Shown here one piece after another: positions 11,102 through 58,285 of a DNA stretch of 64,000 nucleotides. The notes below the pieces were generated by a model. The model searched no databases and had not been told where the DNA came from. It was given only the letters and a program-made list of their open reading frames with translations. Position 1 is the stretch's first letter, and every line of letters starts with the position of its first letter. The position numbers and the translations under genes are program-made. The stretch covers positions 64,037,558 through 64,101,557 of the forward strand of contig NC_134825.1 of assembly GCF_004210375.1 (NCBI RefSeq), written 5' to 3'. Source of the DNA: Tachypleus tridentatus. Its lineage: Eukaryota; Arthropoda; Merostomata; Xiphosura; Limulidae.

Positions 11102-11228
11102 ATGAATCAGAATTTCGTTGATAACCCTCAGAATGTAGCAGACTACCTATCGCAACTATTTAAAGATAAAACGAAACTTGCAGCTTTTCCAAACATGTTT
11201 ATCCATTTACAAAGGCTTCTTGATGATG
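11102..11228 (+). CDS. how: how exon 1: N-terminus and QUA1 start
   Basis: Encodes residues 1-42 plus one base of codon 43 (phase 1). The reading ADYLSQLF...[14 protein letters not shown] matches the QUA1 dimerisation segment of HOW and quaking. The donor is gtaggt at 11229. QUA1 mediates homodimerisation in this family. Confidence 0.88.
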
Positions 11229-14200
11229 GTAGGTGATTTACATTGGCAGTACTATCTTTTTGTACTCTGGCCTAAGGAGTAACAGCTATGTTTTGTGTGT
11301 AAATTCAAATGCATCGTGAATTATCTTTTTAGCGACAGCGTATGTTTATTCTGTCTCGTATTAGTATATTACAAAGTTGTATAGTTATAAGTTTGAATTA
11401 AAGTAAGAACTCATTGATAATATTATTTAATAATTTTCGTTTATTTTTAAGTTTTGATGAAGTTGTATGCTGCTGCTATGTCTACTGCTACTAGTACTAA
11501 CTGCAATTGTTATTTGTTAAAAATGACTAATTTTAATTTATAAAGCAAAATTGTTTGCATATTTGTGTTCACTTTTCAACATAACTGCAGAATGTCAAAA
11601 ATAGGGCTGAGATGAGGTATTCAACATAAGTGATGATGTTTCTATTAACATAATAATTAAGACACATTGGAAGATACCGGGACTTTTCTTTGTTCTTTCT
11701 TCTTTTGACAATATTTGTTTTCAATAACAGTAACAGTCTGCTTTCTGCAACAAAATGGAAAGAGGGTTAATTTTTACCCTCTGTGCTTTTTTTTTTAACC
11801 AATCTTAGATAAGGGGCATCTTTAAATCTTGCTCCATATATCTCTTCCTGGGACTCTTGCATCTTCCATGTTCCATGAAAAGTATTAGTAGTAACAGCAA
11901 TAGTATACCAGAATGTCCACAACTAGGCTACACCCTGCTATGGTGCAGGCTACATTTGACATTGAATAATTTGGAAACATTTGAGTGTCATTCCATGAAA
12001 ATAGGTTCGTGGCCCGGCATGGCCAGGTGGGTTAAGATGCGTGACTCGTAAACTGAGGGTCACAGGTTCGCATCCTCGTTGCACCAAACATACTTATCTT
12101 TTCAGCCATGGGGGCATTAAAATGTGATGGTCAATCCCAGTATTCATTGGTAAAAGAGTAGCCCAAGAGTTGGCAGTGGGTGGTGATGACTAGCTGCCTT
12201 CCCTCTAGTCTTACAATGCAAAATTAGGGACGGTTAGTGCAGATAATTATCGAGTAGCTTTGTGCAAAATTAAAAAAACAAACAAACAAAAATAGGTACA
12301 CCAAAGGTGAATTTAAAATAGTAAGTGTTACCATTAGTATTTTACAGTTTTTAAAAGTTTACTAACTAATTTCTGATAACAAAATTACTATCTTTGAGGG
12401 GTTAGAGAACCACAGTGTATAAAAAAAGGTAGATGATGATGATATATTTTTTATCTTGTAGTTGTTGCATAAAACATGTTAGATTTATATTTAAATGATT
12501 AAAAATTTAACATTGATATATTTCATGTTTATCAGAAGATACCAGTCACTGTTTTTGAAGTTAATCTTTTTGATGATAATTAATAATTTATGAAAATTAC
12601 ATTATGAATGTTATTACAAAGAACCACGAATCACAGAAACGGGATAAGAAACTCTGAAAACCTTTTGCTCACCCTAATCAACTAGCAAACTACTGACCTA
12701 GTACATCATACACCTGGAATAAAAATTTACTGAGATTTGTGACTCAACTACTGGCATGTACAAGTATTATTGTGTGAAGAACATTGAGGTGTTTTAATCA
12801 TAGTGAGTCTGTCTAGTTTCTTGTATAGAATTTCAAAAATATACTAACAAAGTTGTAACATTGCTGAGTCAATTTTAATCTGTATATTTTGCAAAAAATA
12901 AAATTATTTGTTCTAAAAATTGCTGTCAGCTAAGTTGTTTGACAATAGGACCATGTGTTTACGGTAACAAATAAGCATACTAGTGTAGTTAAGGTTATCA
13001 ACTTGTAATACTATGTTTTGCTGACTTACAGTTCAGTTGGAACCATTCATACATGGACATACTGTTTTAACTATTATTCAGACAACTATTATCTTTAAAT
13101 ATAAATTTATGGCACAGACCAGAGATTCTGGTAAATATGTTAATTCTACTTTGAGAAGATTTTTTGCTATGAAGGACTCCTTGGTATACCTTTGAATGAA
13201 TAATGTTTAATTCAGTATGTGCTATGGGTCTACAATCTCTAAACGTTTTTTGATAATATTTTAATACGTTTGGCAAAATGTTTATTCAATAACCAGATTG
13301 AACAGGTTTTTTTTTCTGTATATAGTGGTTGTAGAGGCTTGAGGATATATTGTGATATCATTCTAATATCAAGTTGTTTTTTTCCATATAAATCAACTAT
13401 AAATGATGTTTAAAATTACATTTTTGTCTGATTTGTATTTCCAGTAAAACTGTCAGCCCACTTTTGTCATAAGGACAAATACTTTCTGGTTTTGTAAAAA
13501 CTAGGAGTATTTTGTGTGTTTGTTATTTTGAATAGAAAGTGATTAATAAACATTTTGCCAAGTTTTTAGATTTTTCTTGAAATTCATATTCTGAGGCATC
13601 TTCGTATTTAGGTTTGACATGTTACTTTTTCTTTCTGTTTTAGATTATTTAGAAGTTGCCAAATATTAGAAAATTAAAATAAGGTATTATGTTCCATTTT
13701 TAACTGCAATTGAAAGCATACATCTGTGAACTTATTTTAATAATAAGGATGAATCAATTTAACATCTTTTTTTCCCATAATGTTATCTCTAGAAATTGCT
13801 AAGGTCAGAAGCTCTTTACTTCAAAAGAATGGAGCCAAGAAAGAACCTTTGCTGTTGCCTCATCCAGAAGGAGAAATTGTAACTCTTCAAGAGAAGGTTT
13901 TTGTCCCAGTGAAGGAGTACCCTGAAGTATGTTTTGACAAGTATATATTAGATAAATATGTTGTACCTGTTGACTTGCTGAACAACCATTCATGAGTTCA
14001 GGGTGTAAGTTGACTGTTACACCTGATAATTCAGAGTTAGCATTAGCTAAACTCTGTGTACTTTTTCCTTTTTGAAAATAAACTGCATGCTATGTGCCAT
14101 TTCAAATTTACTTGACAGTAAATATATATTTATCAAATGTAGGAAAATGAATTATAACACATTGTAAGGATGCCGAGTTGCTGTATAATTCTTAGTCATA

Positions 14201-17200: not shown

Positions 17201-20200
17201 TTTGTGACTGACACTTCGTTTTAAGCCATTCAAGTGTGGAAAATGCTAGTTTCTCAATAATAAAGCTTTTCTAAGTTTAATAAATCAAGAGTTAAAGTAA
17301 ACATCAATACACGCATCTGCAGAATACAGAAAATCATGCAAATATATTCTATGGTCATATCACCAAAATTTTCTTCTTGTCAACCAGTTTGTGGTATTTC
17401 CAAGTCAAACTGATTTTTTCATACAGCAACATGATTGGTCCACCAAATAACAGGATATTTGATCAAGATATTTATTATAAAATAATTATGGTCTCACAAT
17501 AACTGAATGTGTGAGGGAAAAAAAAATAAAGATGATGGATGCAATTGTACAACAATACAGAGAAAAATATTTATTCAAAGAAATGCTGTGTGTGTATATG
17601 TGCCAACCATTATAGAAAGTTGCTTTTAATGGATTTAGACTACTTTATATGTTAACTTGGTTGATGTATTTTTCAAAACTGATGAAACCTCATGTTAATT
17701 AGATAAAATGTTAATGCAGTGATTACCCAGATCAAATAACATATTGTATGATGGAGGATGATAATTTCAAGATATCATCTAACCTACCATTGGAAGAAAC
17801 TGCTCTCTACATTTGTAAACAAGGGTTTAAAGTGTGTATATATATACCCATTTAACTGAATACCTTGGTAAAATTCTTTATTAAAATAAAGGTGGAAAAT
17901 GTTTGACATGCAGGAATACTACAATGCTAAACACGATGGACTTTCATTGTTAAATTGGGAAACTGTTAAAGTCCATAAACATTTTTCTTGTGCATCTTTT
18001 ACTCAGATGACAGCTTTTTTATTTTTGTTCTGGTATAATACTTGTGACCTTAGCAGTCTGTCATGTAGAAAAGTGTTGTTAATCCACTTTAATTTTGTCT
18101 GGTAGTACAACTTTGTTGGACGAATTCTGGGGCCTAAAGGTTTAACAACCAAGTTATTAGAACAGGAAACAGGTTGCAAGATTATGGTAAGAGGAAAAGG
18201 TTCTACGAGGGATAAAAAGAAGGTAAGGACTTTTGCCCTTTGCTGTTTTTACAAAATGACTAGTATATTTTAAAGTTGTAGGAAGTAAATCGTGTATTTT
18301 TTACAAAATGAGCTTCTAATAAGTTTTAATCATCTTAAATAGTTTTTATAAGAACATAAATGCTTGCTTGTTCAACCTAGTGTTGTATTTTTTCCCAGAT
18401 TTATATTTGGATGTGTTAAATAATTCAAAGCAGTGCTTTTTATAAGCTATTATTCTCAATTTATTATTCACCAAGTACCATACATTTTATACAGACTTGT
18501 ACCTGTTGATTAAGTGTAAATAGAAATGTTTGTGCAGGAAGAGATGTTTGGGTATGATGGAGTGTGAACATTTTAAAGGAAATTTTAGGAGGTTTTAGTT
18601 TCCAATAGAGGAAAAAAAAACTATATATTGATAGTATTTTATTGGAGGAAAAAGTTGGTTCTTGAATAATGTATGCCTTTACACACTCACACACCATAGT
18701 TATACTAAACGTTTGTCCCAACCTCTACCGTTACATATGAATACTTGAAGTGGAAAATGAGGTAGTGATTTTTATGAATTTGCAGGTTTGACAAGCACGA
18801 TCAGAGAAAAAATTTAAAATATGTAAACAACTCACTTGTGTAACCTAAAACACCATTTATCGTTTACAGTGTATAAAATGTAATCATCAGTATGTAGGAC
18901 ATACATAAACAACTTTAAGAGAACATTTTAACATTCATAAATCTTCTATTAACACCAAAAAAGATCCCTATTGCTCAACAGTTCAATTAACATGGTCACT
19001 TTATGAATGATGTTATTCTCACTGGCATTGAAACAGGATTCAAAACTAAAGCAGGTAGAGAGATAAAAGAAGCATATTGGATTACTAATTTAAACACTGT
19101 TTAACCTTTCAGAATTAATCTAGATCCAGGAATAAGTGATCTCTGGTCATTAGTTTCATCTCTGTCAGAAAAAGAAAAATAACTTTATTTTTCACTTTTT
19201 TTTTTTTTATGAGTATCAAAGCTGATTTTTTCAAAATTGATTAGTGTATCTTTTTCAATCACTCTCTAGGTGCTATCTTTATTTTATTTTACTTAAACAC
19301 CAAAGCATATTTTTTTTAAAAATATACACATACATTTAGCCATTTCAAAATTAAAATATCACTGACACCTTTTCACACAAACTCTCACTGTTTGCTACAT
19401 TGCACTGGAAATGAAATGCTCACAATAGTACACAGAGAAATAAACAATTCTTGGAAAACCAGATGATCTCCCCATGATATCACTAAACACCCTCTATATA
19501 TTACACTTGTTGAATCACTACCACTCTAAGTTTGCCCCTGAAGAAGAAAGGTCTACTTTTCAAAAGTGCTTGGGTTATAGGGTTTCTGTTTCATTTTAAT
19601 CTGTACTAATTTTCTTAACTAATATGGAGTTTTTTCTCCCTCTGGCTTCAAAAGGATAAACAATGAAGTAAGTAAATATTGGTGCATTATTATAATGTTT
19701 GTTAAAATATATTTACACGTAGTTTTGATTGGTTAAGCAGTTAGTCATAGGCAAGGTACTTATATTATACTTTTCATGTTTCTACATTTGCTGTGACACT
19801 GTTTAAGTTTCAATATTAAAAATGATTTTTGTCATTATCTTGGAATGTGTTCCTTGAGAGTGCATACTGGAAGTATTTAACACCTAAACAATGTAAAAAT
19901 AAATCAAAATTGAGTTCGAGCTTTTGTTTCAAATTGAGTTCGAGCTTTTGTTTCCTAAAAGATGTCCAGTATTTTTGTAACTTGTTTAGCATTTATAGAA
20001 TTTTATCAATTTTTTAATTTGCTGTGTTTATAAATGCTTATAAAACTTAAGTCATTTGCAGTCAACTTTTATAACAGTTTTTAGACTTTTATTGATTTCC
20101 AATAGTTTGCCTGATTTCTCATTCAAACCATAACTTAAATTCCTCATTACTGAAGAATTGATAGATATTTAGGAAGTTGTCAAAATAAAATTCTAGTATT

Positions 20201-29200: not shown

Positions 29201-32200
29201 AGTTTGGTGTGCTCTTGACTGTTGAAGTGAGAGTGAGCACCATGGTGAGAGCAAAAGAGCTGTCTGAGGCTTTCAGAAAGAAAATTGTAGCAACTTATGA
29301 GTCTGGTAAGGGATTTAAAAAGATCCAAAAAGATTTTGAAATCAGCCATTCCACTTTCTGGAAAATAGTCAACAAGTGGAGGGCTTTAAAAACAATTGCC
29401 AACATGCCCAGGTCTGGTCGTCCAAGCAAGTTTACCCAAAGAGCAGACTGCAAGATGCTAAAAGAGGTCTCCAAACACCCTAACATGTCATCATGGGACC
29501 TAAAGCAGGCTCTGGCTACTGTTGATATGAAGGTGCATGCCTCTACAATAAGAAAGAGACTGCACAAGTTTAACTTGCATGGGAGGTATTCAAGGAGGAA
29601 ACCTTTGCTCTCTAAGAGAAACATCAAGGCCAGACTGAATTTTGCCAGAGAGAATGTAGACAAAGACCAGGACTTCTGAAATAATGTTCTTTGGACAGAT
29701 GAGTCCAAAATTGAATTATTTGGGCACCAGAACAGAGGACATGTTTGGCATAAACCAAATACAGCATTCCAGGAAAAGAACCCCATACCAACTTTGAAGC
29801 ATGGAGTTGTAAGTGTCACGGTTTGGGGCTGCTTTTCTGAAGCAGGACCCGGGACAGCTCACAATCACAGAACCCACCATGAATTCTACTGTGTATTAGA
29901 GGGTGCTTGAGGAACATGTGAGTCCATCTGTAAGAAAATTAAAGCTGAAGTGTAACTGGACCCTGGAAAACAACAATAACCCAAAACATACCAGTAAATC
30001 CACCAAGGACTGGCTGAAAACTAAGAAATGGAAGTCCTGTAATGGCCAAGTTAAAGCCCAGATCTTAATCCCATTGAGATGCTGTGGGGTGACTTGAAAC
30101 AGGCTATACATGCAAGAAACGTCTCAAACGTCTCACAGCTGAAAGAATTCTTCATTGAGGAGTGGGGCAAAGTTTCTACAGACCGATGCAAGAGACTGGT
30201 AGATGGCTACAAGAAGCATCTCACTGCAGTTATTTCAGCCAAAGGGGGTAACACTAGCTATTAGGGTGTAGGGTGTCCTAATTTTTTCCTCAGTTAGAAT
30301 ATGCATTTTTGTAGAATTACATTTACAGAAGATCTTGAAAAGTTGTTTCTTCAGTTTTAATTGTTTAGTTATATTTCTATAATCTCTCAGTATTGTTGAA
30401 ATTGAGATTAAATATCTATATATCCAAAAATGTTACACAGGCTTTCATATGGTGTCCTAACTTTTTCACATGACTGTATAAATCTCAAAGGGATGATTGG
30501 CCTTACTTTATGACAGTAGATGTTGCTTTTATTATTTTAGATTTGCCCTAACCAAAACATTATAAACTTCAATTATTATATACTTTTCTGGTTAATTTGA
30601 TCAAGAGGTGAATCATTTAAACATGTTATTCAAAGCACATGAAATAGTTTCATATTAAATTGTGTTGTTGTTATTAATGAAAAAGTCAACGATTTACATC
30701 GAGCATCCCTTAAACTGAAGTAAGTTGTCCTGAAATCCACTGTAATAGGTTATAAAAAAAAAAAACAACTTGTTAATTTTGCTTTCTGATACATATATGT
30801 TATGTGATAATTGTGTGATGTATCTAGTTTCTGTCCACATGTTGAATAGGAAGAACAGTCTAAAGGAAAACCCAACTGTGAACACCTCAGTGAAGATCTA
30901 CATGTTCTAATCCAAGTGGAGGATACCCGAAATCGAGCCACTCTGAAACTTGAACATGCCAAGAATGAAGTAAAGAAACTTCTAATTCCAGTGGTTAGTT
31001 TTGATCTTTCTCTGCATTTTTGTGTTTTTGTTTAAGAATGTAATTATGCCAAAACCAAAGAGTACTAAACCTTTTATAATAATAATAATGATAAAGTGTG
31101 GAATTTTTTATTTATTGTTGACATTAAAGAAACACTTATTGATTATTAATAGAGATTTTCCAGTCCTGCCTTGATTAGTATTTAGAATTGTTTTTCAAGA
31201 ATAATTCAGTATATAAATGTTATTTCACAGATGCTAAGTGGTTAATTGTACTTTAATGATGTTTGTTATTGGATTTGCATGACTTGATGTGTACATGTGT
31301 ATAAAATATGCAATTAGTTTAAGTTCAGTTTAATTATAAGAGGAGATAATAATATAAAAATAATTTGAAGATTGTAATTGCTTTATAATTTTCCTGATTG
31401 TTAATGTTTCAATCGAACATTCAGACTGAAGGAGAGGATGAATTAAAGAAAAGGCAACTTATGGAGTTAGCCATCATCAGAGGAACTTACAGAGAGAGTG
31501 GGACTAAAGTTACTAGTAAGGTTCATTCATTTTATTATTTAACCACAGTAATTACACTAGTTTTATTTCTCTTTATTCACTTAAATAAACTGAACTTTTA
31601 CTGCAGTGGTTATATCAGTTTTAGGTATCGCACATCTAAGTTTAAAATTAAAAATAAGTGTCTTGGTGAGATATTACAGTAAAACATTACTTTAAACATG
31701 TGAACTGTTGTTACAATGTATACTGGTTTCACTTGTTTCCCTTTTCAAGTGAAAATTATGTGTTAATGAGATGACTAGCGATTTGATGTAGGAAAGTGTT
31801 TTTTGTGATTTGGGACAAGTATTATTAATAGCTGTAAATGTGTGGTAAAATCTTTTTAATGGTGTAACAGTTTGGAGTTTTTCTAATCAGTTACTCATCA
31901 TCCTTGAACCATTTAATTTGTTTGATTTAATTAGGGGGATTAAGAACTGTTGATGCCACATTGTGCTGATGACACAGATCACAGAATTAATTAAACCCAT
32001 ATATTCTGTTGTCATTTTTTATTAGTAACTTGTGTATTTAAAGTCAAATGTATTAAAATCTTCTGTTTCAGAATAAAATACATTAATTATTCAAATTAAT
32101 TGATGTTTTAAGTTTTGGTCATAATTTTCAAAATTAAATGAGAAGTAACTTCATATACATGTTCTGTATTTGTATTTCTTTGTGTATTGTAAAATATGTA

Positions 32201-35200: not shown

Positions 35201-38200
35201 AGTTTTTTGTGCTGTCACATTACCTATAAAATTTAATCAATGGCAAAACATGTCTGAGATATGCCATTCCACAGCAACTGTATCAACTGTTCTTGTCATG
35301 TGACTTGCTGAATTACACCTCCAGTGGTAAGTCTGAAGACATGATGTAAAATGGGTTTCAGTTCCTGTTGTGGGCAGAATACAGGTTTGCCATTATGTGG
35401 CTTTATACTTAGGTTCAAGTGAATAAAAATTATTTATAGATTTTAAAATCATTATTATGTAATATACTCAGTTCTGTATATACCCATTTATTATTATACA
35501 TACTATTCTAATAACCCATTTTACGAAAATCTTTAACTAGCAGACAGTATGTTAAAAAAAAAGTGTGTATTTACTTTAGATTCTGATTTAAGTTGTATAG
35601 GAAGTTACTGCACAAACTGAATAGTATGTGCTTGTATTAGTCTAAAAAACTGAGTTATCTGTAAGTTTAATATACAGAAAATATGTAATAATAGGAAGCA
35701 TTTTATTAATGAAATTGTTTTTCATTTATTGATAAGTGATGTTATACCACAGTCACAGTTCTGAGTATAATGTGTTTAATCAGTTATGTACTAAAGAGAA
35801 TTTACAGATTAATATATGTTTCTTTCTGGCTGATGCTTGTTGCCAGAGGACAAGCTATGAACATATTTTAAGACAAAAACTAGTTCAATTTCTAGACATG
35901 AATACTGCATATTTTAAGGAATATATGAGATCTGACTGGTATACATTAGAATTAATAAGTGATTAGGATTTAAGAAATATTTGAGACCTGATATAAACTT
36001 CAATTAGTACATTTGTTTTTTTTTTTTAATATAAAATGACATTTTACTATCTAATTCTATATAGTAAAATGTCACTGTATAGTAAAAGGTCTATTTCTAA
36101 AATATAGTTAGTGTTTGTTTAATATTTTGCATTTTTATTTTATATAACATCTTAGGATAGTAGTAACTAGCTTTTATTGTGTTACTATAAGTTTGCCCAT
36201 AACTAGATAATTAGGTGAAACATTGTTTATCAGACATGTAATAGTGACTGTAATATTAAAGAAAAAGGATTGCACTTGTTTTATTTCTGTTGATAGCTTA
36301 ATGGATTTATTTATTTCAGAGTCAGAAATTACTCAGTTAATGGCTCCACCAATCACATTGGGAGCACCTCTTCGTGTGCCGAACCCAATCGGAGCACCTT
36401 TAATCCTTTCTACTCGACATCCGGTGCCAACATCTAATTCTTTGGTGAATGGAAGTGTTCCTACACAACTTATCAATCCTGCGGGTGGAGGCCTCATTTA
36501 CTCTCCTTACACAGATTATCAGTATGCTGCACTTACATCACCTTTCTTAGCACAGTATCCAGGGCTTGACCATTCTGCTGGTGGTGGGTTGTTTGGTTGA
36601 CAAGTATTTTAGTACAGTCATTTTTTTTAGTTGAATAAGTTAAAATAATCATATTTATGTTGAAACATTTGATGGAGAACATTTTTGTCAAGATTATTTT
36701 ACTACCTTTATTAGAGATTTATACATGTTTTTCACTGTTATGTTTCATTGTTGTTGTTCTGAAAATAAGTTTTGTTTTTTTTCCATAAGCATAATTGAGC
36801 TTTTCTCTCGTACTTTTTTTGGGGGATATATTTTTAAATTTATATATTTTTTAACAGGTTAACAAGGTTTGTGACTTGAGAAAATTGTATTTATTTTGCT
36901 GTTGTTTTATTATTAGTTAATTTTGTTCATATTGTATGTTGATATATTAAGTAGTTTAAATGATATATAATACTATTTAGACATTTATGAGATTAATGTA
37001 ATGTTTCTGAGGTGGTTAGAAATACCTGGTTGAGTTGTGTACATTCTAGAAGTATTTGCTGGTATTTTGAATGAGGTAGGTAATTAATATTTTCAAAAAT
37101 ATATATTTCTAGATTTACATGTTAAAAAAATTTATGATAAAAGATATAATACTGTGAAAATCTACAGTATTATATACAGTAAGATTCATTTGGCAGTCAC
37201 AGCTTAATTGTCAATTGTCCTAAGTCAGGTTACATACCATTCATAATTTATGGTAAAAAGAAGCAAAGAAAAAATAAATTTGAGTTTATTGTTTTTATAT
37301 GAAATTCAACATTATACTTTGTTTTAAGGATGCATTCTCAAGAACTGGAAAAGTTAGAATTTAGCAGTCAGATATTATTCTCTAATTAGTCTTAGATGCA
37401 TGTTTTCAATTCTTTGTTGCCTGTTATAGCAACTGTATTGCAAGGATTAGGAATGTTGACTATGCATAGTTTTCAAGAAAGTCAAGGTACATTGAGTAAG
37501 CATTAAGTATACTATGTAAAAACATGCTAAATATTTGTCAAGAAGCAATGTACCCAAACTTTAGACTTTCCATAAACAGTCCTAATTTCTAGGTTTTTTT
37601 GGCACAGTTGCTTGCTTACACAATTTGTATGAGTGTTTTTTAGTTATTTTTCTGAGCTTTGCTATAATGTAGGGGAATTAATGTGGCATAAAGAAAGAGA
37701 AATAATAAGTCAAAAACTTCTATACAAAAACCATAAAAAAATGCTGGAAAACTGAATGGTAGTTCTAATTATCTTTGCCTTTTCTTAATTGTACTTTTGG
37801 TGAATAATATTTGAGGAATAAGTTTTATATTTCTGTCTTCAGTGCTTTATATAGTGTTCATAGCTGTTTATGAAAGAATTAGTTCTAGATGAAATGTTGA
37901 CTGATACAGGAGGTATTGGCTTTTCTTTAGTTACTATTTGAATGTCTTATGTTTTGGTTGTTAATTAACAACTGCCCATTTTAACATACTGATAAACTTA
38001 ATTTCTGATATGCTTTCCTCTGCACTGATATTCTAAAGTATATGCTAGACAATATTTTTTTGACAAGTAACAATATCTCTAATAGATTTATCATGTGTCA
38101 AGCACAAGGAAATGTTATTGTTTTCCTACATACCAGAAGTAATTACATTGTTTGGATGTATCTGTAATATTGTAATACAATAAAAGTGCCAACTTGGCAT

Positions 38201-41200: not shown

Positions 41201-42270
41201 TAGACTGAAACATGAAGGGGACACAGAGATATATTATTAAGGACTTGCATATGCCGTGAAGTTAGGTTACTTCTGCACCATCTCGTATGAACCTCGTATG
41301 AAACTGATTTGGACTTGGATTACTTTTACCTCACTTTTTTTTTCTTCAGTGAATGTATATTGACATGTTAATCTTTTATTAGAAAACTTTCATTTGTTCG
41401 CTAACAGTTTATTTGGTATGACAGTCTCAAGTTTTCTTTAATACTGTGTTCATATTGATTTATATTATTTAGGGTATTTACAAAATATACAACATCTAGT
41501 AATTCATAAAATGAAATAAAATCTGGTTGTGAAGTCTCAATATTTTGTAAATTACTTTATGATTAAAAATCTTTTTCTCATTCCACAGTTTTCTGTATTT
41601 GTCAAATATTTATATTGTACATGTACATTATATTTGGGTTTTAAATTTATTTTATGTAACATTAGTGCTGCTAGTACTTAAGAACAAGATTTTGCCATAT
41701 AATAACCTTCTGTTAGGCTTAAGAAGAGTTTTGAATCTCAGTAAAGGACACTTAAGTCTAAAAAGAAATGAAATACCTCAGTTGTTTTCATAAGGAAATC
41801 AGTGTGTACAGTGGGAAATGGGTGCTGTTTTACAGACATTGTAAACAATGAACTTTTCATAGCTCTGTCCTTTAAAAAGTTTGAAGTTTTACAAAATGTG
41901 TAGATATTTGTGTACAAGAATTAAACTTCAAATGTACACTAGTTGAATGTATATTACTGAGAGTAGAAATATATTTTCTATTAACATAGTAACTAATGTG
42001 TATCTGATTTTTTCTTTTTTTTGGAAAAGCATAATACTCAGAAAGGTCAGAGAATTTGAGTAACCAAACTGCAGTGTTTCAGATATTCATAACTTGAAAA
42101 CTAATTACATGTAAACACACATTTCTTATTAAGAATAATTTGCTAATTAACCTGAAATATGTATTATCTCTATTTTGTGTTGTATGTGCACAATAGGTGC
42201 TGTAGCAAAGCAGCGAAGACTCTTGGGAATTAGAGAACATCCATACACACGAACTGGATCTCTCTCATAA
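11102..42270 (+). CDS. how: held out wings / quaking-like STAR RNA-binding protein, seven-exon gene, nuclear isoform
   Basis: STAR-family KH protein that binds ACUAAY-type elements in RNA and controls splicing, stability and translation, known in muscle, tendon and glia. Exons 11102-11228, 13793-13926, 18106-18222, 30850-30993, 31425-31515, 36320-36580 and 42197-42270 join in frame (948 nt, 315 residues plus stop), all with GT-AG introns. Domains: QUA1 about residues 11-48; KH about 75-165 with the GPKG loop at 96-99; QUA2 about 165-198 with QLMELA at 185-190; low-complexity Pro/Ala tail with GAPLIL at 229-234; and a C-terminal QRR...REHPYTR motif like the nuclear signal of QKI-5 and long HOW. 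Family comparison is from memory. Oddities: Cys136 where relatives have Trp (GKPNWEHL) and Leu104 where they have Gln. Horseshoe crabs have duplicated genomes, so this may be one of several paralogues. The start is the first in-frame ATG giving the usual HOW N-terminus; extra 5' exons cannot be excluded. Confidence 0.9.
11229..13792 (+). other. how intron 1 (2564 bp)
   Basis: Bounded by gtaggt and tatctctag. It holds the SINE at 12011 and otherwise AT-rich sequence without coding signal. Confidence 0.85.
12011..12291 (+). repeat. SINE family A copy 4 (tRNA-derived, how intron 1)
   Basis: Complete copy starting GGCCCGGCATGGCCAGGTGG, with B box GGTTCGCATCC. The body has GAGTAGCCCAAGAGTTGGCA and GACTAGCTGCCTTCCCTC, and the end is TAGCTTTGTGCAAAATT plus A/CAAA repeats. 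It is the best-preserved member in the window. Confidence 0.9.
13793..13926 (+). CDS. how: how exon 2: end of QUA1, start of KH
   Basis: The acceptor is tatctctag. Two bases complete Glu43, giving [12 protein letters not shown], then residues 44-87 ending VPVKEYPE, the first strand of the KH domain. The donor is gtatgt at 13927, phase 0. [12 protein letters not shown] is close to the HOW linker. Confidence 0.9.
13927..18105 (+). other. how intron 2 (4179 bp), with an unclassified denser segment
   Basis: Bounded by gtatgt and ggtag. It holds the SINE at 14547. From about 15460 to 17230 base composition rises in G+C and fragmentary frames appear (for example [20 protein letters not shown] near 16260 and overlapping frames at 16358-16714). 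This looks like a decayed mobile element, but I cannot assign a family. Confidence 0.7.
14547..14672 (+). repeat. SINE family B copy 2 (how intron 2)
   Basis: CCCCCACTGGTACAGTGGTA (A-box-like), ATCAGGGGTTTAATTGACC (decayed B box), GGCAGATAGCCCGATGTGG and CTTTGCTATAAGAAAACAC. It is a second tRNA-derived family, distinct from A, with a simple CA-type tail. Confidence 0.8.
18106..18222 (+). CDS. how: how exon 3: KH core with GxxG loop
   Basis: Thirty-nine codons, phase 0 at both ends, with acceptor tctggtag and donor gtaagg. It encodes [11 protein letters not shown] (GxxG loop), then [19 protein letters not shown], which is highly conserved in STAR proteins. [10 protein letters not shown] has Leu where HOW and QKI have Gln (TAKQLEQETG). 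Confidence 0.93.
18790..19600 (+). mobile_element. Penelope-like retroelement remnant (GIY-YIG endonuclease end)
   Basis: Across several stops and frame changes the plus strand reads [12 protein letters not shown] (the YVGxT of GIY-YIG), [33 protein letters not shown], then [15 protein letters not shown] and [14 protein letters not shown]. This is the C-terminal endonuclease of Penelope-like elements followed by the typical INLDPG ending. A CTGAAGAAG-containing tail follows at 19538. The reverse transcriptase is missing, so it is a 5'-truncated, decayed copy within how intron 3. Confidence 0.75.
19907..19954. repeat. perfect 2 x 24-bp tandem duplication
   Basis: AAATTGAGTTCGAGCTTTTG plus TTTC is present twice back to back without a difference. 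It lies in how intron 3 between the Penelope-like and DIRS-like remnants. Confidence 0.9.
20330..22080 (+). mobile_element. DIRS-like retrotransposon remnant (RT and RNase H)
   Basis: Readable blocks with stops and shifts are: [12 protein letters not shown] (RT, near 20965), [13 protein letters not shown] (RNase H, near 21420), [16 protein letters not shown] and [10 protein letters not shown] (near 21600-21690), and [20 protein letters not shown] (near 21815). The order RT, INxLEL RNase H, HIPGxxN, then DxxxxxW...FPPxxL is that of DIRS-type elements. I could not make out a convincing tyrosine recombinase. The copy is heavily decayed and lies in intron 3. Confidence 0.65.
22667..23890 (+). pseudogene. 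LINE ORF1 (gag-like, zinc knuckles)
   Basis: It starts [12 protein letters not shown] at 22667, stops early and resumes in another frame. The open part 22902-23474 includes [16 protein letters not shown], then knuckle-like Cys motifs ([43 protein letters not shown]) and WLEEKEVQ. The CCHC knuckles are decayed: the second Cys of the first is Tyr (Q-Y instead of C), likewise in the second. ORF1 proteins of Jockey elements bind the element RNA. Confidence 0.8.
23930..27590 (+). pseudogene. LINE ORF2 (endonuclease, reverse transcriptase, RNase H), broken
   Basis: Endonuclease pieces: MQWNC near 23945, QETF near 24030, [13 protein letters not shown] near 24315. RT pieces: [27 protein letters not shown] (about 25425-25505), [12 protein letters not shown] (about 25660), PQGCVLS (about 25840) and the catalytic YVDD at 26093-26104. 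RNase [20 protein letters not shown] (about 26890), where Gly of TDGSKSG is Tyr, and [14 protein letters not shown] (about 26995). The C-terminal Cys-rich piece [15 protein letters not shown] is at 27510-27555. At least a dozen stops and shifts are present. The region order matches Jockey/I-type elements with an RNase H. Confidence 0.85.
25877..26041. mobile_element. 165-bp foldback insertion within the LINE, with 11-base flanking repeat
   Basis: The LINE reading frame is interrupted here. TTCAGTATAAA (25866-25876) before the insert is matched by TTCAGCATAAA (26031-26041) at its end, a target-duplication-like pair with one mismatch. The insert contains 41-base arms at 25913-25953 and 25990-26030, which pair around a 36-base loop; the inner 21 bases differ at one position. 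It is a small non-coding foldback element, possibly trimmed on the right compared with its left flank. Confidence 0.65.
27800..28080 (+). repeat. about 150-bp tandem duplication in the LINE 3' region
   Basis: AAAATGGCTGTAACATCAAA (27803) through ACTTCAGGTGACTAAC recurs with drift from 27953 (AAAATGGCCATAATGTCAAA...ACTTCAGGTGACTGAC). Two copies about 150 bases apart are diverged at many positions. They are probably part of the LINE 3' untranslated region. Confidence 0.6.
28865..30476 (+). mobile_element. Tc1-type DNA transposon with about 210-bp inverted repeats, TA-flanked
   Basis: A 1612-bp element between TA dinucleotides (28863-28864 and 30477-30478). The ends begin CAGT and form inverted repeats of roughly 210 bases. 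Each repeat carries two copies of the direct repeat AAAAGTTAGGACACCC (left at about 28875 and 29061), the IR/DR layout of Sleeping Beauty-like Tc1 elements. It lies in how intron 3, 370 bases upstream of exon 4. The transposase inside is broken. Confidence 0.92.
29242..30264 (+). pseudogene. Tc1 transposase, broken
   Basis: The start is ATG 29242 ([16 protein letters not shown]). The paired helix-turn-helix N-terminal half is intact, with GRPSKFT in the linker. The frame stops at TGA 29677 in place of the expected Trp ([11 protein letters not shown]). Motifs after the stop: WTDES (first catalytic Asp at 29698), [15 protein letters not shown] where the usual second Asp of QQDNDPKHT appears as Asn, and [13 protein letters not shown] (Glu near 30075). 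The region 29880-30070 needs frame changes. The last open stretch runs to TAG at 30262. It is non-functional. Confidence 0.9.
30850..30993 (+). CDS. how: how exon 4: KH C-terminal half
   Basis: Forty-eight codons, phase 0 at both ends, with acceptor gttgaatag and donor gttagt. It encodes [19 protein letters not shown]..., then the KH C-terminal helix ending KKLLIPV. Cys136 (TGT) replaces the Trp found in GKPNWEHL of QKI, HOW and GLD-1. Confidence 0.93.
31425..31515 (+). CDS. how: how exon 5: QUA2
   Basis: The acceptor is acattcag and the donor gtaagg, ending in phase 1. It encodes [16 protein letters not shown] then [12 protein letters not shown], the QUA2 region that contacts the ACUAA part of the RNA in this family. 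The 431-base intron before it is the shortest in the gene. Confidence 0.92.
35311..35425 (+). repeat. SINE family C copy 3 (how intron 5, decayed)
   Basis: TCCAGTGGTAAGTCTGAAGA, GGGTTTCAGTTCCTG (decayed B box), TGTGGGCAGAATACAGG, then ATTATGTGGCTTTATACTT. The layout matches the family C copy at 10119 in the opposite orientation. Confidence 0.62.
36037..36074 (+). repeat. perfect 14-bp stem-loop upstream of how exon 6
   Basis: TGACATTTTACTAT at 36037-36050 is perfectly complementary to 36061-36074, with a 10-base loop. It lies 245 bases upstream of the exon 6 acceptor. It may be a remnant of a small inverted-repeat transposon or an RNA structure. Confidence 0.6.
36320..36580 (+). CDS. how: how exon 6: Pro/Ala-rich tail
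   Basis: The acceptor is ttatttcag. Two bases complete a Lys codon, followed by [19 protein letters not shown] and [34 protein letters not shown] and the Tyr/Ala-rich segment are shared with insect HOW. The donor G|gtggtg at 36580/36581 leaves phase 1, which suits the acceptors at 42197 and 54872. Without splicing, the frame continues five codons to TGA at 36598. Confidence 0.88.
36320..36600 (+). CDS. how: how exon 6, read-through terminal form (GGLFG end)
   Basis: If the 36581 donor is not used, the reading frame adds GGLFG and stops at 36598-36600, giving a 297-residue protein without the HPYTR tail. Short quaking isoforms also arise by swapping the last few codons, so a cytoplasmic isoform is plausible. 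AATAAA occurs near 37273. There is no transcript evidence, and it could be a non-productive retained intron. Confidence 0.4.
39212..39535. repeat. tandem repeat, 112-bp unit plus nested 68-bp unit (how intron 6)
   Basis: ACAAAATGTAAGAAT...CTCACAGTTTTACA repeats with a 112-base period (39213 and 39325), nearly identical. The 3' part then repeats in a shortened form with ATATGCTAGTGCTAGTGGCA at a 68-base period (39433 and 39501). The near-identity points to recent expansion. Confidence 0.85.
40402..40710 (-). pseudogene. mariner/Tc1-type transposase fragment
   Basis: The minus-strand ORF contains [11 protein letters not shown] (compare HDNARPHTA, holding the second catalytic Asp) and, 30 residues later, [11 protein letters not shown] (compare PPYSPDLSPxDYFLF). 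Only this C-terminal piece is seen and no terminal repeats are evident. It lies in how intron 6. Confidence 0.55.
42197..42270 (+). CDS. how: how exon 7: nuclear-type C-terminus
   Basis: The acceptor is cacaatag. GT joins the G of exon 6 to give HSAG then [23 protein letters not shown] and TAA at 42268. KQRR...REHPYTR matches the C-terminus of long HOW (KQQRR...REHPYQR) and the nuclear signal of QKI-5. This fixes the orthology and the phase of exon 6. Confidence 0.9.
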
Positions 42271-45200
42271 ACTTGGCCAAGGTTGGTTGTACCTTTGTCT
42301 TTTCAAGCAATCTTTAGTAATGGTTGCTAACAAGCAAAATTGTTACTTATCACAAAAAAAATAATTGTTAGTCAAGTTTTGTAATCTAAATTTTTTATAG
42401 TTTTAACATGTTGTTAAAACACACAAAACCACATAGAATTACTTTAAGACATTTATCTTATAGGTAAGTAACAAATTTGCTTGTCATTTTAAGGATAGGA
42501 TTACATATCTCTATGAGCCTAGAACAATTCAAAGAAAAATCTTGTGAAAGTTTCTTTTTTAATATGAAGTTTTTTGTACCAGAAACTTGCTTTCAGAAGA
42601 TTGTCTGTTCAATACATTAAGATATTATTCTCAGTAATTATCTACAGGCTGGTGTACATACACTTGTGAAAGATAAGAAGAAAAATGTGATATTAGAAGT
42701 AAAGGAACTTCTTACAGAAGGAGAATATTGACAAAAGGTGAAAATGTGCATATCATTATCTTTTGGAGTGTTACATTCAAAACTTAATTAAAATACATTA
42801 TTATCAATGTATATGAATAAACTGGAATCAAAACATATCCTGAGTAAAATATTATGTGAGTGTGATCTTGACTTTAAAGGAAATATAAAACAAGTTACAG
42901 TCTGATCCCCACTTAGGTCTTCCATCTTCTGTAATTTATTTAATACCCTTTTGATGAATATGGTCTAAATGTAAATTACTCATTATTAAATAAATATTAC
43001 TAAGATTAAGAATGACTTTTATTGCTTTGTCTTATTTATTACAGAGTCATAGGATAGAAAATTACTCATTTGCTATTCCCATCTGTCACATCCTCTGTTT
43101 CACAAATTAATTACCAATAGCTTTCTGACATGGTATACTGTATTATTTATAACCAATAGAAAGCCAAGTTTTTAATTTATCAAGTGATGTATCACATTGT
43201 TTTCAGCACATATAATTGGTTATTTTATCTATAGTTGAAAAGCTCAAGATAATATTAAAGTTGTTATACTAAAGCTAGGAAGCCAAAAAAACTGATAGTT
43301 ATAGAATGTTTTGTTTTTCAGGTTTATTGTGTTTTTAGAGATATTTAATTAAATGAAAATTATTTGATGGATTACTAGGATTAGTATAAGAAAGTAGGGT
43401 TACATTTATTCAGCAAGCAACAGCAAATAAAATGAAATTGCAGATAAGGGATATATTTGATATTATTAATGCATATTCTTTATATATTATTATAAAAGTA
43501 GGTTACATGTAAAAATTATAAATTTGGTTATATATGGTTAGATTAGATATAATGAAAAAGATGACAATGAAAATTCTTCATGAGATATGCTGAGAAGCAG
43601 TTCCTGTATTACATAATTTGATATTGTAATGTGAGCCACAAATTCATTAAATGATTTACAACTTGCATGGTGGGATTCTTAATTAAACATATCATAGGCA
43701 GTAAGATTATAAAGTATAATAAAGGTGGTTATAATGTCAGTCCAATCACTTTAATGGAGATAGAGAAAATAATGGATAAAATATGAAGTTTTACTGAAGA
43801 AACATTTTATCTTTATTTAAGAAGTTTTAGAGATTAAGCAAATTAAAATGACAATTTTCAGATAAAAGTATTTCTATTCTTAACATGAAAATCACTTTGC
43901 AGTTGGAGCAGTTGATACTTTAACTCCATATATGCTTGATTCCCCTTGGCAGACTCACCAGATAGTCCATTGTGGCTTTGCCATAAGAAAAACACACCCT
44001 TCATATGTGATTATGCCTAAAGAACTTTTATTTTTTCTGCTGGTTGACATCGAGGTTGAATCAAAGCAAATTATACAATATTAGGAACTTTATGCTTCAG
44101 GAAAATGTTGTTCATGAAATTTTAGAATGATGTTATTTCTTACAAAAATCAGTGAAGTAAAGTAATCTAGTGAAGTAATAGAAAGTTGTACAAACTCAGG
44201 AATGTATACAGATATTTACACATCATGAGAAGAAATCCCACTATTGTATGAATAAGCTGTGATGTGTAAAAAATATATGCAAGTGTGTACAGATAACACC
44301 AGAATGAAAGGATTGGGAATGGTGAAAACAGAAAAGAGTGTTGATATGTAATTCTCATTTAATGATTGTGTTTGTGTAGAAAGCTGCAAAAGTCTACATA
44401 TGATGACATGCATAGAATTATAAAATGATCTTGAAACTTGGAAAGGAACATCATTACTATACATAAAAATGTGTGTAGATTAAAGACAATTTACACAAAT
44501 ATTTTGTTCAAATAATTCAATATGAAACTTAAAAAAAAAAAAAAAAAGAGGTGGTGGTTTCAGAAAATACTTTTACATTTAAACAAAAAGCCAATCACAA
44601 ATGGAAAGATGCTACTATCTGAGATATCTGATAGTTTTTAGAGATTCTGGAAAATGGAAATAGCAGAAATGCTTATAAACTAATAATAGTACTTTAGAAA
44701 CTATTAATTTATTTTGATAAATTTAATAATGTTTATGAATTATTAGACAAAAAACCCTAGAATGAGTTGAGATGTAGATATACACACTTTAATAAATGAA
44801 TCCAAGTTTGGATCATTGGGTTATTGGCAAAATCTTAAGAAGGCCTAGAAGCCTATATAACTTAAATTCTTACATTTTTTTCACTGTTTTTCTTTTTTCT
44901 CTTTTTTTACTAGCATACCAAAACTCATTATTTACCTGTTTTGGTTACATGTATCTTACATATTAACTCTCTCTGTATGGGCTTGTTTAATTTATCTGAT
45001 CTTAATAACCATGAAATTATACGTACCATTATAAGTTATAGTAGCTTCACAAAATTAGTAAACGTTTAGTAAACAGTACAAGCCTTTTGCACACAAAGTA
45101 ATTTTTTAATAATTTTTACTAAAAATCTAAGTAATTTTCATGTTAAGATTGAAAATAATTTTCTTTCATCTTAGTGCTTTACAGTTTTCTTATTTTTACC

Positions 45201-52326: not shown

Positions 52327-52328
52327 TA

Positions 52329-53858
52329 TAGTGCCTTGCAGAAATATTCACTTCCTACAAATAATGTCATATTTTAGGAAATACAAATATGGTAATCAAT
52401 TTTTTAATGAAGCTGTTTTTATTTAAAATGCTAATGGTCAAACTTAACACTGTTGTGTGTGAAGGAGGTTGAATTTCAGCAAAACCTGCAATGAAATGTA
52501 TAAATTGAAATGTGCTGTTTGCATACGTATTCAGCCCCCTAAGTCAGTACTTGGGTGGAAGCACCTTTGACAGTAATTGCTGCTTGAGTCTTTTTAGAAA
52601 TGTCTCTACTGGCTTTGCTCTTTGGGATGGTGTAATTTTTTATCTATTCTTCCTGACAAAGTTCCAATTCTGACGTGTGTTGGGGAACATTGATGGACTG
52701 CTCTCTTCAAGTCTCACTATAAATATTTTATTGGACTCATGTCAGGACTTTGACTGGGCTGCATCAGGACAGCCACTTTATTCTTTTGAAATCACTCCAA
52801 TGTGACTTTGTCCTTGCACTTTGGGAAATTGTCCTGTTGAAATGTGAATTTTTGATCCAGTTTTAGATTCTTGGATGACTCAAGGTTTTTCTCTTTTAAT
52901 ATCCTTATACTTTGTATTGTCTGTTTTTCCCCTCAGTCTTGACAAGCTTTCCATTCTATGCTTATAAGAATCATCTCCATGATGTAATGCTGCCACAACC
53001 ATACTTAAAAACTGGGATGTTGTGGACTGGATGATGTGCTGTGTTGGACTTGCATCAGATCTAATGTTTGTAGTATCATTTATATGCTTTGTTGCAAACT
53101 CCTTATGAGATATAAGATGACTTTTTCAGTAATAACTTCTCTCTTGTTACTCACTCACACAGGCCAGCTTTGTTTAGGGATTGGTATATTGTCAAAGTAT
53201 GAACACTGACTTTCACCTCAGACATGGAACTTTGCAAATCTTTCAAAGTCACTGTTTGGTTCACAGTGACTTTCTGACCAGTTTCTTGCTTTCTCAGCAA
53301 GGGTAGTCTGATCTGGATAGTGAATGGGTGGTACATAGCAATTCCACTTCTTAAAGTTAGAATTCATCATTTTCAAAGTGGGATAATCAGTGACATTGAA
53401 ATGTTCTTGCAATCTACTTCTTATCAGTGATTCTCTACTACTTTATCCCTGACTTCTTTGGGAAGCTTCTTTGTCTTCATGGTTGGTTTGTCTTATCTCT
53501 ACATAAATTGTGACTTGAGCAGATGAATTTACTCTGAAATCAAGTTAAACCACTTTGATTACACACAAAGACTATTACACTAATCTTGTGACCTTTCAAA
53601 CTAATATTTTGCACCTGAAATGATTTAGGGTTGCCATAGCAAAGGTGTTGAATATTTATGCAATTGAGAATATTCTAATTTTCTTTGAAAAATCTAACTT
53701 ACTTACATAACATAATGTCTGTTTTAGATTTCTCAGGTTGGAGTGGATTGTGTAGGTACTAAATATAAAATCCCATTTGAAAGTTTCATGATTGCAATCT
53801 TGGACCACAACCAAATGTGGAAACTTTGCAGAGGACTGAATGCTTGTGCAAGGCACTG
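52329..53858 (-). mobile_element. Tc1-like transposon on the minus strand, decayed
   Basis: Inverted ends AGTGCCTTGCA (left 52330, right complement near 53850) lie next to TA (52327-52328 and 53859-53860), enclosing 1530 bp. The minus strand starts MKTKKLPKEVRDKVVENH at 53480, then stops, and later shows TFQQDNFPKCKDKVTLE, QPSQSPDMSPIKYL and DLKRAVHQ with several shifts. AGTGCCTTGCA is a common Tc1 terminal sequence in animals. It is older than the element at 28865. Confidence 0.85.
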
Positions 53859-54231
53859 TATAATACTGTATTGATATGAAACAATTTAGACTTGTATATG
53901 TAATACAAAATGAGCAAAGTGAAATTATACAGACAATTTGCTTGAGAATTTAAGTTAAGTGTTTTAGATCACTTTTGTGTCTGTAATTATGGTGTGGTCA
54001 CATGTTGAATCTTTCTAAAAACAAAAATTTTTCTGGGAAGAGTTTGAATCTTGTTAATGAAGAGACTTGTATGGTTGACTACTGGTTCTTATTAGTCAAG
54101 AAACCTGTTATGTGATAGGTTAGTTTTTTGATTAGTGTAATCCAGATATTGCTAGTTTGTTTTTTCATCTCAGTTTAGTGCTTGTTTTTGTAATTTGGTA
54201 ATTTTTTATTTCTACTGGTTTTGGCTCCATC

Positions 54232-55554
54232 ACTAACTCATCTTTTATTCCACTCTATTGTATGTTACAGAACAGCAGCTTTTTTCTGTGATGACAGAAG
54301 CTGTGGGTTTTGTTAACCCATTTATCCATTTTTTTTGGGGGAATACTACTTGAAAAGTAAAGTTACTTGTTTAATAACTCCTAACTGTTTATTTCCTACT
54401 GTGTCTTCACTATGGTTGTAACGTCATTGTTAGAGCCAACAATTCTATGTTGTATCAACAAACAATTCAAAGATTAATGTTATTAAAATAAGCCAGTGTT
54501 ATTGGATGAAATTTCCAGTGAATGCACTGTCTTTAATTCTGTTATATATGAATATAATATTGCAGAGAAGGATCAAACTTTTTTTTATTCACACTAACAG
54601 GCAAGTATAACTTTTTTTTATATAACCTTCTAATATTGTCTTTTTGTTATACCTGTATCCATTCCTGTTATATGTAGATATTGACTACTATGATATAATT
54701 TCATGAATACTAATATTATTTTCATTATTCATAAAATGATTTTATTAATAAAGTGTGGTGAAGCATATAGAAGTTATGGACGTGATCATGAATCATAATT
54801 AACTTTTCAGTCCACTGTAACTAACGTGATCTTCACATGTATTTTTTTCTCTTTGAATCTTGTTAACCCAGTTTCACCACACCACTACTCCATGACTTCA
54901 TCACCAAGACTAACACACTCTCACCTGATGCTTTCAAGCAAGACAAACAACTTCCAGCCAAATTCTCCAGCCAGTTTAGCACAGTTAGTAAGCCATATCT
55001 TTTGAATTAATTTTCAAGATCTCCACTAACAACTTTTCAATATTTGGTGTCCTTTGCCAGTTAAGAAAAACCCATCCTTCAGGTGGCTCGTCTATAGTGG
55101 TAACTTGATTGTTTATGTGTTTTTATTTTCTGTATATGTTAGGCCGTATGCTGAAACTTCAGCTTAGTACTTTTATTCAGTAGTATAGTTGTTGCCTCTT
55201 CTTACAGTAGATAAATTCTAAAGACTGTTAACAGCATCAGTTGCTTTCTCATAAACTAACTCAATTTTTGTATTTGGAAAATGAGTGCAAGTTGGACCAT
55301 TTGGACAAGCTTTTATCTAGGATCCTGTTAATAAAAACTGTAAATTCTTCATGAAACAAATCATGAAATTGGATATTTGTGCTAACGTATAAATAATTTG
55401 TTAATGTATCTTTACTTAATGGAAAAAAAATCACATTATATTGTCACCATTGTTGTAATTTTTAAACCTTGTTTATTATAGCTTTAAATTCCAAAATATA
55501 GAATTCTGGGTGAATTTTTCAAGTACTTGAATACTTTTTTTAAATACAACTAAC
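54232..55554 (+). promoter_or_regulatory. cluster of ACTAAC (quaking/HOW response core) hexamers
   Basis: ACTAAC occurs at 54232, 54593, 54820, 54909, 55025, 55255 and 55549, with ACTAAT at 55579. TAAC half-sites are nearby, for example 54864 just before the acceptor of the candidate exon at 54872. ACUAAY plus a nearby UAAY is the established binding element of quaking, GLD-1 and HOW. Whether it is bound here is inference. The copy at 54820 could equally serve as a branch point. Confidence 0.45.
54872..55005 (+). CDS. candidate alternative terminal exon of how
   Basis: A strong acceptor (pyrimidine tract then ttaacccag) precedes a segment that, joined to the exon 6 donor in phase 1, stays open for 43 codons: VSPHHYSMTSSPRLTHSH... 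to QLVSHIF and TGA at 55003. The peptide is rich in Ser, Pro, His and Asn and lacks the nuclear motif. A donor-like gtaagc at 54988 could make it an internal exon. Seven ACTAAC hexamers surround it. I recognise no homologue. An open stretch of this size can occur by chance. Confidence 0.35.
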
Positions 55555-57254
55555 AGTATGTTAGTTGTTACTCCAAAAACTAATCTGATAGTTTGTTGTC
55601 CCCCTTCCCCCAGTCGATGAATAGTATGTGCACAGTCATACATCTAGCTGCACTTAGATTGTCATTCATAATAAGCAAAACAGTATTTGTGTAAAAGCAT
55701 TTTCATTATAATTCTCCATGTTAAATATAAGGTTACACTTATGCAGCTCAAACATAATGTATAATGTGATTCCAGATTTTGTAATAAAAGCAAGCTGGTT
55801 TTCTACAACAATAACAGGTTATAAAAAAATTATAAAATAGACATAAAACTTTATTTTGTTTTTTTCAAATGTAGTGAGCTTAAAAGTGGGTTTTGTGTTC
55901 CATAGTCATTGGTTTGTGGTGTGGAAGATACTTGTAAGTGTTCGTTAAGATGTGGCAGCTGCCAACATGACAACCAGTAAAATGTTATGTAACTAAGAGA
56001 TGTCACAATGTTGGAAAATGTATTTGTAGGGTCACATTTATACTTTTAAATTATGAAGTGTTTGTTTTAATATTTGTATTTGAAGTAGAAAATGGATTTT
56101 TTTGAAACTTATAAAACGTTGCCAATTGTATCAGCACTATAAACTGAAATTTAGATGTTTTTTCTGTAGTTGTAGTTTATTGTTTTTTATATATTTGTTA
56201 AACCTTTCATTTTATGCTCACTGAACAAAGTAAAGTACTTACTTGATAGTATTAAACTAACAATGTAAGGATTATGAGGATAGTTGTGAATTAACCATTT
56301 TTGAACTTGCTGGCTACTAGTGTAGTTAATAAATAACGTTGCAGCAAGAGCCCCTCCAAACAGACGTCATTATGTGAATGATATTTACATACAATTTAAT
56401 ACACCATGTTTATTGGTAAAAGGAATTGGTGAATATATTACACATGCAGAACAATAAACAAAACAACAACTTGTGATTATAGTGGTTAAAATTTCCTCTT
56501 TTTGTCAGTTTGATACACTGGTTTTTATTTAAATACTTATATCCATTAACCCAGTATCTCTACACAAGATAGTCTTGTTAGCAGTATAATAAATATTGTT
56601 TAGGATAAGTATATTAAGATAGGGTTCAACTCCAAACATTTATAAACTTGTAACTTTTTTTGAAAGAGAAGGATAGATCAGCTGCAAAGTGTTTTATACA
56701 GAATGGTACTGAAACATATTTCAAAGTAGTTTTATATTTAATTATTTTGTGAATATTTTCAATTATTATCTTTATTTTACTTAATAAATAATGCATACTT
56801 GACTTTAAAGGATCATTTTAAAATTCACTGTGATATATAAATTAATTTGCATGGTTTTAAAATTCTTTTTTTCAGATAGAAAAAATACTGTTTTAAATGT
56901 AAGTTAAGGAATACTTCAGTTACAGTATTGTGATGGTTTGAATGTTCCAAAGGGTTTAAAAAAAAACATTTGAATATACTTATTGGATGATTTTTATATT
57001 GAGACATGAAGATAAAATTAACTCTTAAATAAAAAATGCAGCTTCCAGAAATTAGCTTTGATTTGAATTATAACAGATATAAGTTTTGATGCTGCTTTGA
57101 TAATAGCAAAGCAATGAAAATCAGAATTATACTGTTACCAAAACAGTTTGAATGTTAGCTGTTCAACACAACTAACTAAAACTGTAAAGTTCAAAGTATT
57201 GTAAGTAAAGTTAGAATTGATTAAGTATGTTGCAATTACTTGTTTGTTCTTTAG
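55006..57254. other. AT-rich flank between candidate exons
   Basis: Contains three of the ACTAAC hexamers (55025, 55255, 55549) in its first part, another at 56256, and AATAAA near 55329 and 55782. No further coding signal. Confidence 0.5.
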
Positions 57255-57380
57255 TTCTCAATTTATTCTCAACAAGGAAATTGTTGTGGTCGATGTATGA
57301 CAAAGGAAATAATTGGGACTTTTCACGAGAGTGGGATTAACCAACTTTGGCCATTTGTTAGACAAATTGGTTGTTATTAA
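57255..57380 (+). CDS. speculative last exon following 54872-54987
   Basis: After acceptor tttgttctttag, phase 0 (the phase left by a donor at 54988) is open for 41 codons to TAA at 57378. It reads FSIYSQQGNCCGRCMTKEII and ends LWPFVRQIGCY. The joined product would be 371 residues. No homologue is recognised. Support is only the splice signals and the open frame. Confidence 0.18.
   Translation, partial: FSIYSQQGNCCGRCMTKEIIGTFHESGINQLWPFVRQIGCY

Positions 57381-58242: not shown

Positions 58243-58285
<43 letters not shown>

Follow-up and report, generated by a model that had tools for sequence, protein, structure and literature searches.

ACUAAC words clustered around a candidate non-coding exon and kept in gene copies suggest that a horseshoe crab quaking/HOW-type gene may control its own message

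The DNA analysed here is a stretch of 64,000 nucleotides from the horseshoe crab Tachypleus tridentatus (the window), with a STAR gene on its plus strand. The joined translation of the exons, which is conceptual and has an approximate E5/E6 junction, matches the solved STAR proteins quaking (4jvh, E 1.4e-74) and GLD-1 (4jvy, E 2.2e-69), and contains the Pfam families STAR_dimer (E 1.1e-22) and KH. By these matches the gene is identified as a quaking/HOW-type STAR gene, with a predicted QUA1 dimerisation region and KH domain and closest to QKI, in agreement with the sequence-only reading of this DNA, which had called it the how gene. The exons assigned to it are the following.

11102..11228, plus strand: E1, the first coding exon found, with STAR_dimer on the joined translation (Pfam)
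13793..13926, plus strand: E2, exon of the STAR gene
18106..18222, plus strand: E3, exon of the STAR gene, KH domain (Pfam)
30850..30993, plus strand: E4, exon of the STAR gene
31425..31515, plus strand: E5, exon of the STAR gene, 3' boundary approximate
36320..36583, plus strand: E6, last common exon, donor at 36584 (GTGGGT) or 36596 (GTTGAC)
42197..42281, plus strand: QKI-5/HOW(L)-type tail exon, 24 protein letters, stop at 42268-42270, donor at 42282

Both candidate donors of E6 leave phase 1. When E6 is read on unspliced (36584-36601), the frame gives GGGLFG and then an immediate stop, and retention of this intron could possibly yield a short HOW(S)-like end. Upstream of the STAR gene, an open frame at 6590-6973 encodes a THAP domain (Pfam E 3.6e-16).

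The exon at 42197-42281, which the sequence-only reading had overlooked, is a separate nuclear-isoform tail in phase 1 with an HPY motif, and was the best plus-strand frame match over 124 kb to the human QKI-5 tail. It ends 11 nt past the stop codon, at the donor CAAG/GTTGGT (the slash marks the junction).

STAR exons are found at four places in the 2.17-Gb genome, namely the window (C1) and the copies C8, C10 and C5, with weaker matches of a single exon on C7 and C13. Whole-genome duplications have been reported for horseshoe crabs (PMC7815833), and four copies would fit them. The tail exon has counterparts in C8 and C10, each encoding 24 protein letters, and the genome search reported none in C5. 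Pairwise differences among C1, C8 and C10 fall mostly at third codon positions (11 of 12, 15 of 17 and 8 of 9), a pattern by which the tail exon evolves as coding sequence, and the donor CAAG/GTTNGTT is kept 11-12 nt past the stop in all three.

Further downstream, seven ACTAAC hexamers, the DNA form of the ACUAAC word, had been claimed within 54232..55554, and all of them are present on the plus strand, at 54232, 54593, 54820, 54909, 55025, 55255 and 55549. This interval of 1,323 bp holds 7 of the window's 20 plus-strand copies, and the 13 others bear out the estimate of about a dozen elsewhere. When both strands were counted, as had been proposed, the minus strand gave 22, and the total of 42 against 41 expected is no excess; the ACTAAC signal is one of clustering, without a window-wide excess. 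For a span of 1,323 bp, the window's total predicts 0.41, and the 53 copies in 253,900 background bases (the window plus loci L002-L015 and L017-L021, with L016 excluded) predict about 0.28. With 20 points placed uniformly, at least seven in 1,323 bp has a P of about 3e-5, and in the proposed randomised-sequence check seven were reached in none of 300 simulations at each of the Markov orders 1, 2 and 3. Compared with the remainder of the window, no hexamer is more enriched in the interval than ACTAAC (Poisson 2.4e-8; the runner-up, TTTTTT, 1.1e-4), and among 794 hexamers with window totals of 15-24 it alone reaches seven there.

The cluster lies mostly on the sense strand, since the interval holds 9 of the window's 52 plus-strand CTAAC, as against 3 of the 62 copies of the reverse complement GTTAG. 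Eight of the 43 (A/G/T)CTAAC words of the window, which correspond to the HOW core (A/G/U)CUAAC, also fall inside it. In 200 kb of flanks and controls, L016 excepted, no more than 4 ACTAAC occur per 1,323 bp on either strand. L016 (G000:C1:20000001-20010000) has 36 on the minus strand in the 1,323 bp from its position 2363, perhaps a satellite, so ACTAAC clusters also arise elsewhere in the genome.

HOW binds CUAAC with high affinity (PMC12868882). However, the seven sites were not classed as an array of bipartite quaking response elements (ACUAAY with UAAY 1-20 nt downstream), because only one ACTAAC, that at 54593, has the downstream UAAY half-site; the looser YAAY is found 1-20 nt downstream of three, and UAAY within 20 nt upstream of two. 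The claim of HOW binding is tempered accordingly.

A dispersed repeat was considered and rejected as the source of the hexamers: in 2.17 Gb the interval has just four matching places, of which three lie in copies of the STAR gene and the fourth is a second place on C8, near-identical to the first. No tandem repeat is listed within the interval, and Rfam gives no family in the window at the gathering score. In the 164 kb examined, the longest stretch without repeats is 50986-61887, and the cluster lies inside it. At 50830-50949 there is a short element of very high copy number, found at 38 places across the 164 kb surrounding the gene but at only one between 12.2 and 64.3 kb.

As a query, the interval matches only the C8 copy (77%), the second C8 place (76%) and the C10 copy (73%). 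The C8 sequence finds the identical set of places, with C10 at 80%, and neither query matches the fourth copy, C5. The core around the candidate exon thus aligns at 73-80% identity in C1, C8 and C10. The candidate exon starts 12.6 kb beyond the tail exon in C1, and about 2.2 and 2.9 kb beyond it in C8 and C10, respectively; by these positions the conserved block lies downstream of the tail exon in all three copies. The second C8 place (L037, G000:C8:132890594-132894593) is 0.62 Mb from the C8 gene and copies its tail-exon-plus-element region, with 99.1% identity to the first place over 4 kb and a tail exon of its own at C8:132890258; no match of KH, E4 or E5 was reported there. It is either a recent partial duplication or an assembly artefact, and was excluded from the three-copy counts. 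The features of the block and the remaining ACTAAC sites are listed below, with plus signs giving positions relative to 54872.

54732..55118, plus strand: conserved block, aligned in the C8 and C10 copies
54753..54764, plus strand: 5' arm of the stem, GUGUGGUGRAGC, 12 bp
54820..54825, plus strand: ACTAAC, candidate branch site and candidate HOW site, invariant in three copies
54843..54871, plus strand: polypyrimidine tract and AG acceptor, 29 nt, invariant in three copies
54871..54882, plus strand: 3' arm of the stem, GYUUCACCACAC, made of the acceptor G and the exon start
54872..54983, plus strand: candidate non-coding exon, with a conserved GTYAGT donor-like site at 54984
54909..54914, plus strand: exonic ACTAAC at +37, invariant in three copies
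55025..55030, plus strand: ACTAAC at +153, invariant in three copies
55255..55260, plus strand: ACTAAC at +383, matched by one at +376 in C8 and one at +387 in C10, where the sequence aligns poorly
54232..54237, plus strand: upstream ACTAAC, no aligned counterpart
54593..54598, plus strand: upstream ACTAAC with a UAAY half-site 9 nt downstream, no aligned counterpart
55549..55554, plus strand: downstream ACTAAC, no aligned counterpart

Across C1, C8 and C10, 69% of 261 alignment columns in the block are invariant. The invariant runs include AACTAAC, the 29-nt TTTTTTCTCTTTGAATCTTGTTAACCCAG, the exon start, CCAAGACTAAC, AGCCAGTTTAGCAC immediately before GTYAGT, and CCACTAAC. All three ACTAAC of the aligned block are invariant, as against 22% of hexamers (P about 0.011). 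Part of the 29-nt acceptor tract, TTTGAATCTTGTTAA (54852-54866), has an exact second copy at 54043-54057, 809 nt upstream.

In the 1.6 kb around the block, a span picked after the sites were seen, ACTAAC is the top hexamer of each copy, with 7, 6 and 5 occurrences in C1, C8 and C10 against 0.33 expected, and with 3, 0 and 0 antisense. Since homology to the block is what led to the C8 and C10 stretches, these three-copy counts are not independent. When all 4 kb are considered, ACTAAC ranks 1, 1 and 4. Outside the aligned block, C1 has 6 ACTAAC against 0.76 (P 1.4e-4), C8 shows a weak excess (3 against 0.76, P 0.04), and in C10 the count is not significant (2 against 0.77, P 0.18).

The conserved ACTAAC at 54820 stands in the position of a branch site, the arrangement relevant to QKI-SF1 competition, with its branch A 47 nt before the acceptor and no intervening AG. 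It is the only ACUAAC within 200 nt upstream of 54872, so that a pair of such words near the acceptor is not found. The acceptors of E2-E6 have no CTAA in the last 60 nt, and that of the tail exon has one at 54 nt. Acceptors rated good follow 5 of the 20 plus-strand ACTAAC, 1 of the 22 on the minus strand, 7 of 65 in other loci, and 12.6% of random positions. In the window those after 54232 and 55025 also look good; the latter was rejected, as C8 and C10 carry an earlier AG.

The 12-bp stem, which joins a partly invariant run within less conserved intron to the acceptor and exon start, is present in the minimum-energy fold of C1, C8 and C10 (z -2.7, -2.0 and -3.1). Among 38 stems found in 53000-57000, it is the sole one that reaches both 11 bp and 5 G-C pairs. 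Its pairing holds in 48 of 48 cells (four rows, with the C8 near-duplicate counted), as against 27-65% when the arms are slid. Covariation is unsupported, because just two pairs vary, each changed on one side and with no compensatory change, and shuffles do not set the stem apart. An inner hairpin of branch site and tract appears in the consensus fold; it was rejected, not being stable alone (z 0.5, -0.8 and -0.2).

The sequence-only reading had taken 54872 as the start of an in-phase coding alternative terminal exon of how, and the phase-1 frame is open for 43 codons in the window. However, a second frame is equally open there, the phase-1 frame stops at the ninth full codon in both C8 and C10, and C10 carries a net length change of 4 nt. 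The three copies have no frame in common, and substitutions show no codon-position bias, those in the exon's first 57 nt being scattered over codon positions. Pfam searches with two frames of the exon gave no family at E up to 0.1. A coding exon here has a close to negligible probability; the sequence evolves as non-coding. Since the frame is unsupported and the tail exon ends at a donor past its stop, 54872 most likely starts a non-coding exon downstream of the tail exon, with ACUAAC as its putative branch site. Alternatively, it could be a terminal exon running on towards the AATAAA at 55330 and 55783.

The earlier observation is thus confirmed and strengthened by conservation in the gene copies. 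The STAR gene, the mostly sense-strand cluster and the absence of a repeat family stand, and the cluster and 3' splice site are kept in two further gene copies; the coding exon at 54872, its frame broken in C8 and C10, does not stand.

A cluster kept in duplicated gene copies around a conserved non-coding exon suggests that the protein may control its own message. In the proposed mechanism, the HOW(L)-type tail exon, with its stop and then its donor, would be joined to the non-coding exon from 54872. The ACUAAC branch site of this acceptor would double as the word that HOW itself binds, HOW would find more ACUAAC at +37, +153 and about +383, and the conserved stem would fold the acceptor and exon start back onto the intron. 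When HOW is abundant, a dimer could occupy the branch-site ACUAAC together with an exonic or downstream one and compete with SF1, lowering use of the exon, so that another 3' end or isoform would be made. The ACUAAC words retained in the mRNA might add control of stability or translation. Splicing of the exon, binding by HOW and the direction of the effect are predictions from the genomic DNA.

That HOW regulates its own transcript here, through a self-targeting element of a quaking/HOW-type gene, is given about an even chance. This reading is supported by the clustering, the sense-strand bias, the conservation in C8 and C10 and the conserved acceptor, tract and stem, and because a tail exon with a conserved donor precedes the block in all three copies. 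That ACUAAC is also favoured by SF1 alone counts against it, as do the single bipartite site, the missing match in C5, the weak or non-significant excess outside the aligned block in C8 and C10, and the stem's lack of compensatory change. Autoregulation is plausible, and its point of action might be splicing, the 3' UTR or the two together.

If 54872 opened the HOW(L) terminal exon and its ACUAACs acted on stability or translation, splicing would be unregulated. This 3'-UTR explanation is a realistic though doubtful one. All three copies have retained the sites at +37, +153 and about +383, which precede an AATAAA at +458 (C1), +658 (C8) and +479 (C10), and the density of sites in the QKI-5 3' UTR is said in a review to allow autoregulation (PMC12611993, citing Fagg 2017). 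However, conservation is no weaker at the branch-site ACTAAC and in the intronic stem arm than at the exonic sites, and the conserved GTYAGT that follows its 112 nt is a hint that the exon could be internal. It is less probable still that the cluster reflects ordinary splice signals, with the ACUAAC at 54820 a strong SF1 branch site and the rest unbound by HOW. Its distance from the acceptor and the lack of an intervening AG are those of a plain branch site, but the invariant exonic and downstream ACTAACs, and the excess beyond the acceptor, would be left unexplained.

Conserved non-coding DNA is often an enhancer, and the block lies within the long repeat-free run. It could be a DNA element, or part of another transcript, unrelated to how splicing. 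The sense-strand bias, the conserved splice signals in the gene's orientation and the shared placement after the tail exon in three copies all speak against this reading, which is judged very improbable.

Under the self-regulation reading, a more specific RNA switch can be imagined, unlikely as it is in this full form: HOW dimers, bound to the ACUAAC of the branch site (-52) and to that in the exon (+37), would form a bridge around an acceptor-hiding stem, and so set the share of HOW(L) message given the last exon. Since such a switch would have been kept in three copies since duplication, the copies may cross-regulate one another.

Quaking autoregulation is already known in mammals; the new part is the branch-site-centred arrangement with a conserved stem. 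If it is true, a conserved ACUAAC branch site accompanied by exonic ACUAACs in a quaking/HOW gene of invertebrate type would suggest either that the feedback is old or that it arose on two occasions. With its three diverged copies, this single genome provides a natural test of STAR-SF1 competition, and the element is compact (about 400 nt) and fits a minigene. Among the matches listed from open-licence papers, no published account of this element was found, and no such paper joins 'held out wings' with 'horseshoe crab'.

Several known systems come close. It has been reported that QKI-5 alters the splicing of its own gene in mouse (PMC5548867), in line with the statement of the sequence-only reading that vertebrate QKI is known to regulate its own transcripts. 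Mouse qkI is likewise a quaking-type gene with a common exon, a nuclear-isoform tail exon and a further exon, and many binding words in its own 3' region; the block after the tail exon parallels its exons 6-7c-8 (PMC5548867). There, regulation was shown by knockout and concerns exons 7a and 7b; here the clustered words, read from genomic DNA, surround the exon that follows the tail exon, and one of them is a candidate branch site. ACUAA branch sites are contested between QKI and SF1 (PMC13004596), and RAI14 exon 11, subject to this competition, has ACUAAC at the branch-site position, as does the putative alternative exon here. In RAI14 two ACUAAC lie 34 and 43 nt upstream of the acceptor (PMC13004596), whereas here there is one upstream, the next is in the exon at +37, and the target would be the STAR gene itself. 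A 3' region dense in sites, in the gene of the nuclear isoform, is the feature shared with QKI-5 autoregulation through its 3' UTR (PMC12611993), although that system is mammalian and experimental and the present sites are known from genomic DNA. Finally, in C. elegans the STAR protein ASD-2 acts on intron 1A of unc-60, where CUAAC repeats near an acceptor switch 3'-end processing, as is proposed here; unlike the present case, the target is another gene, and the partner protein SUP-12 is required (PMC3469465).
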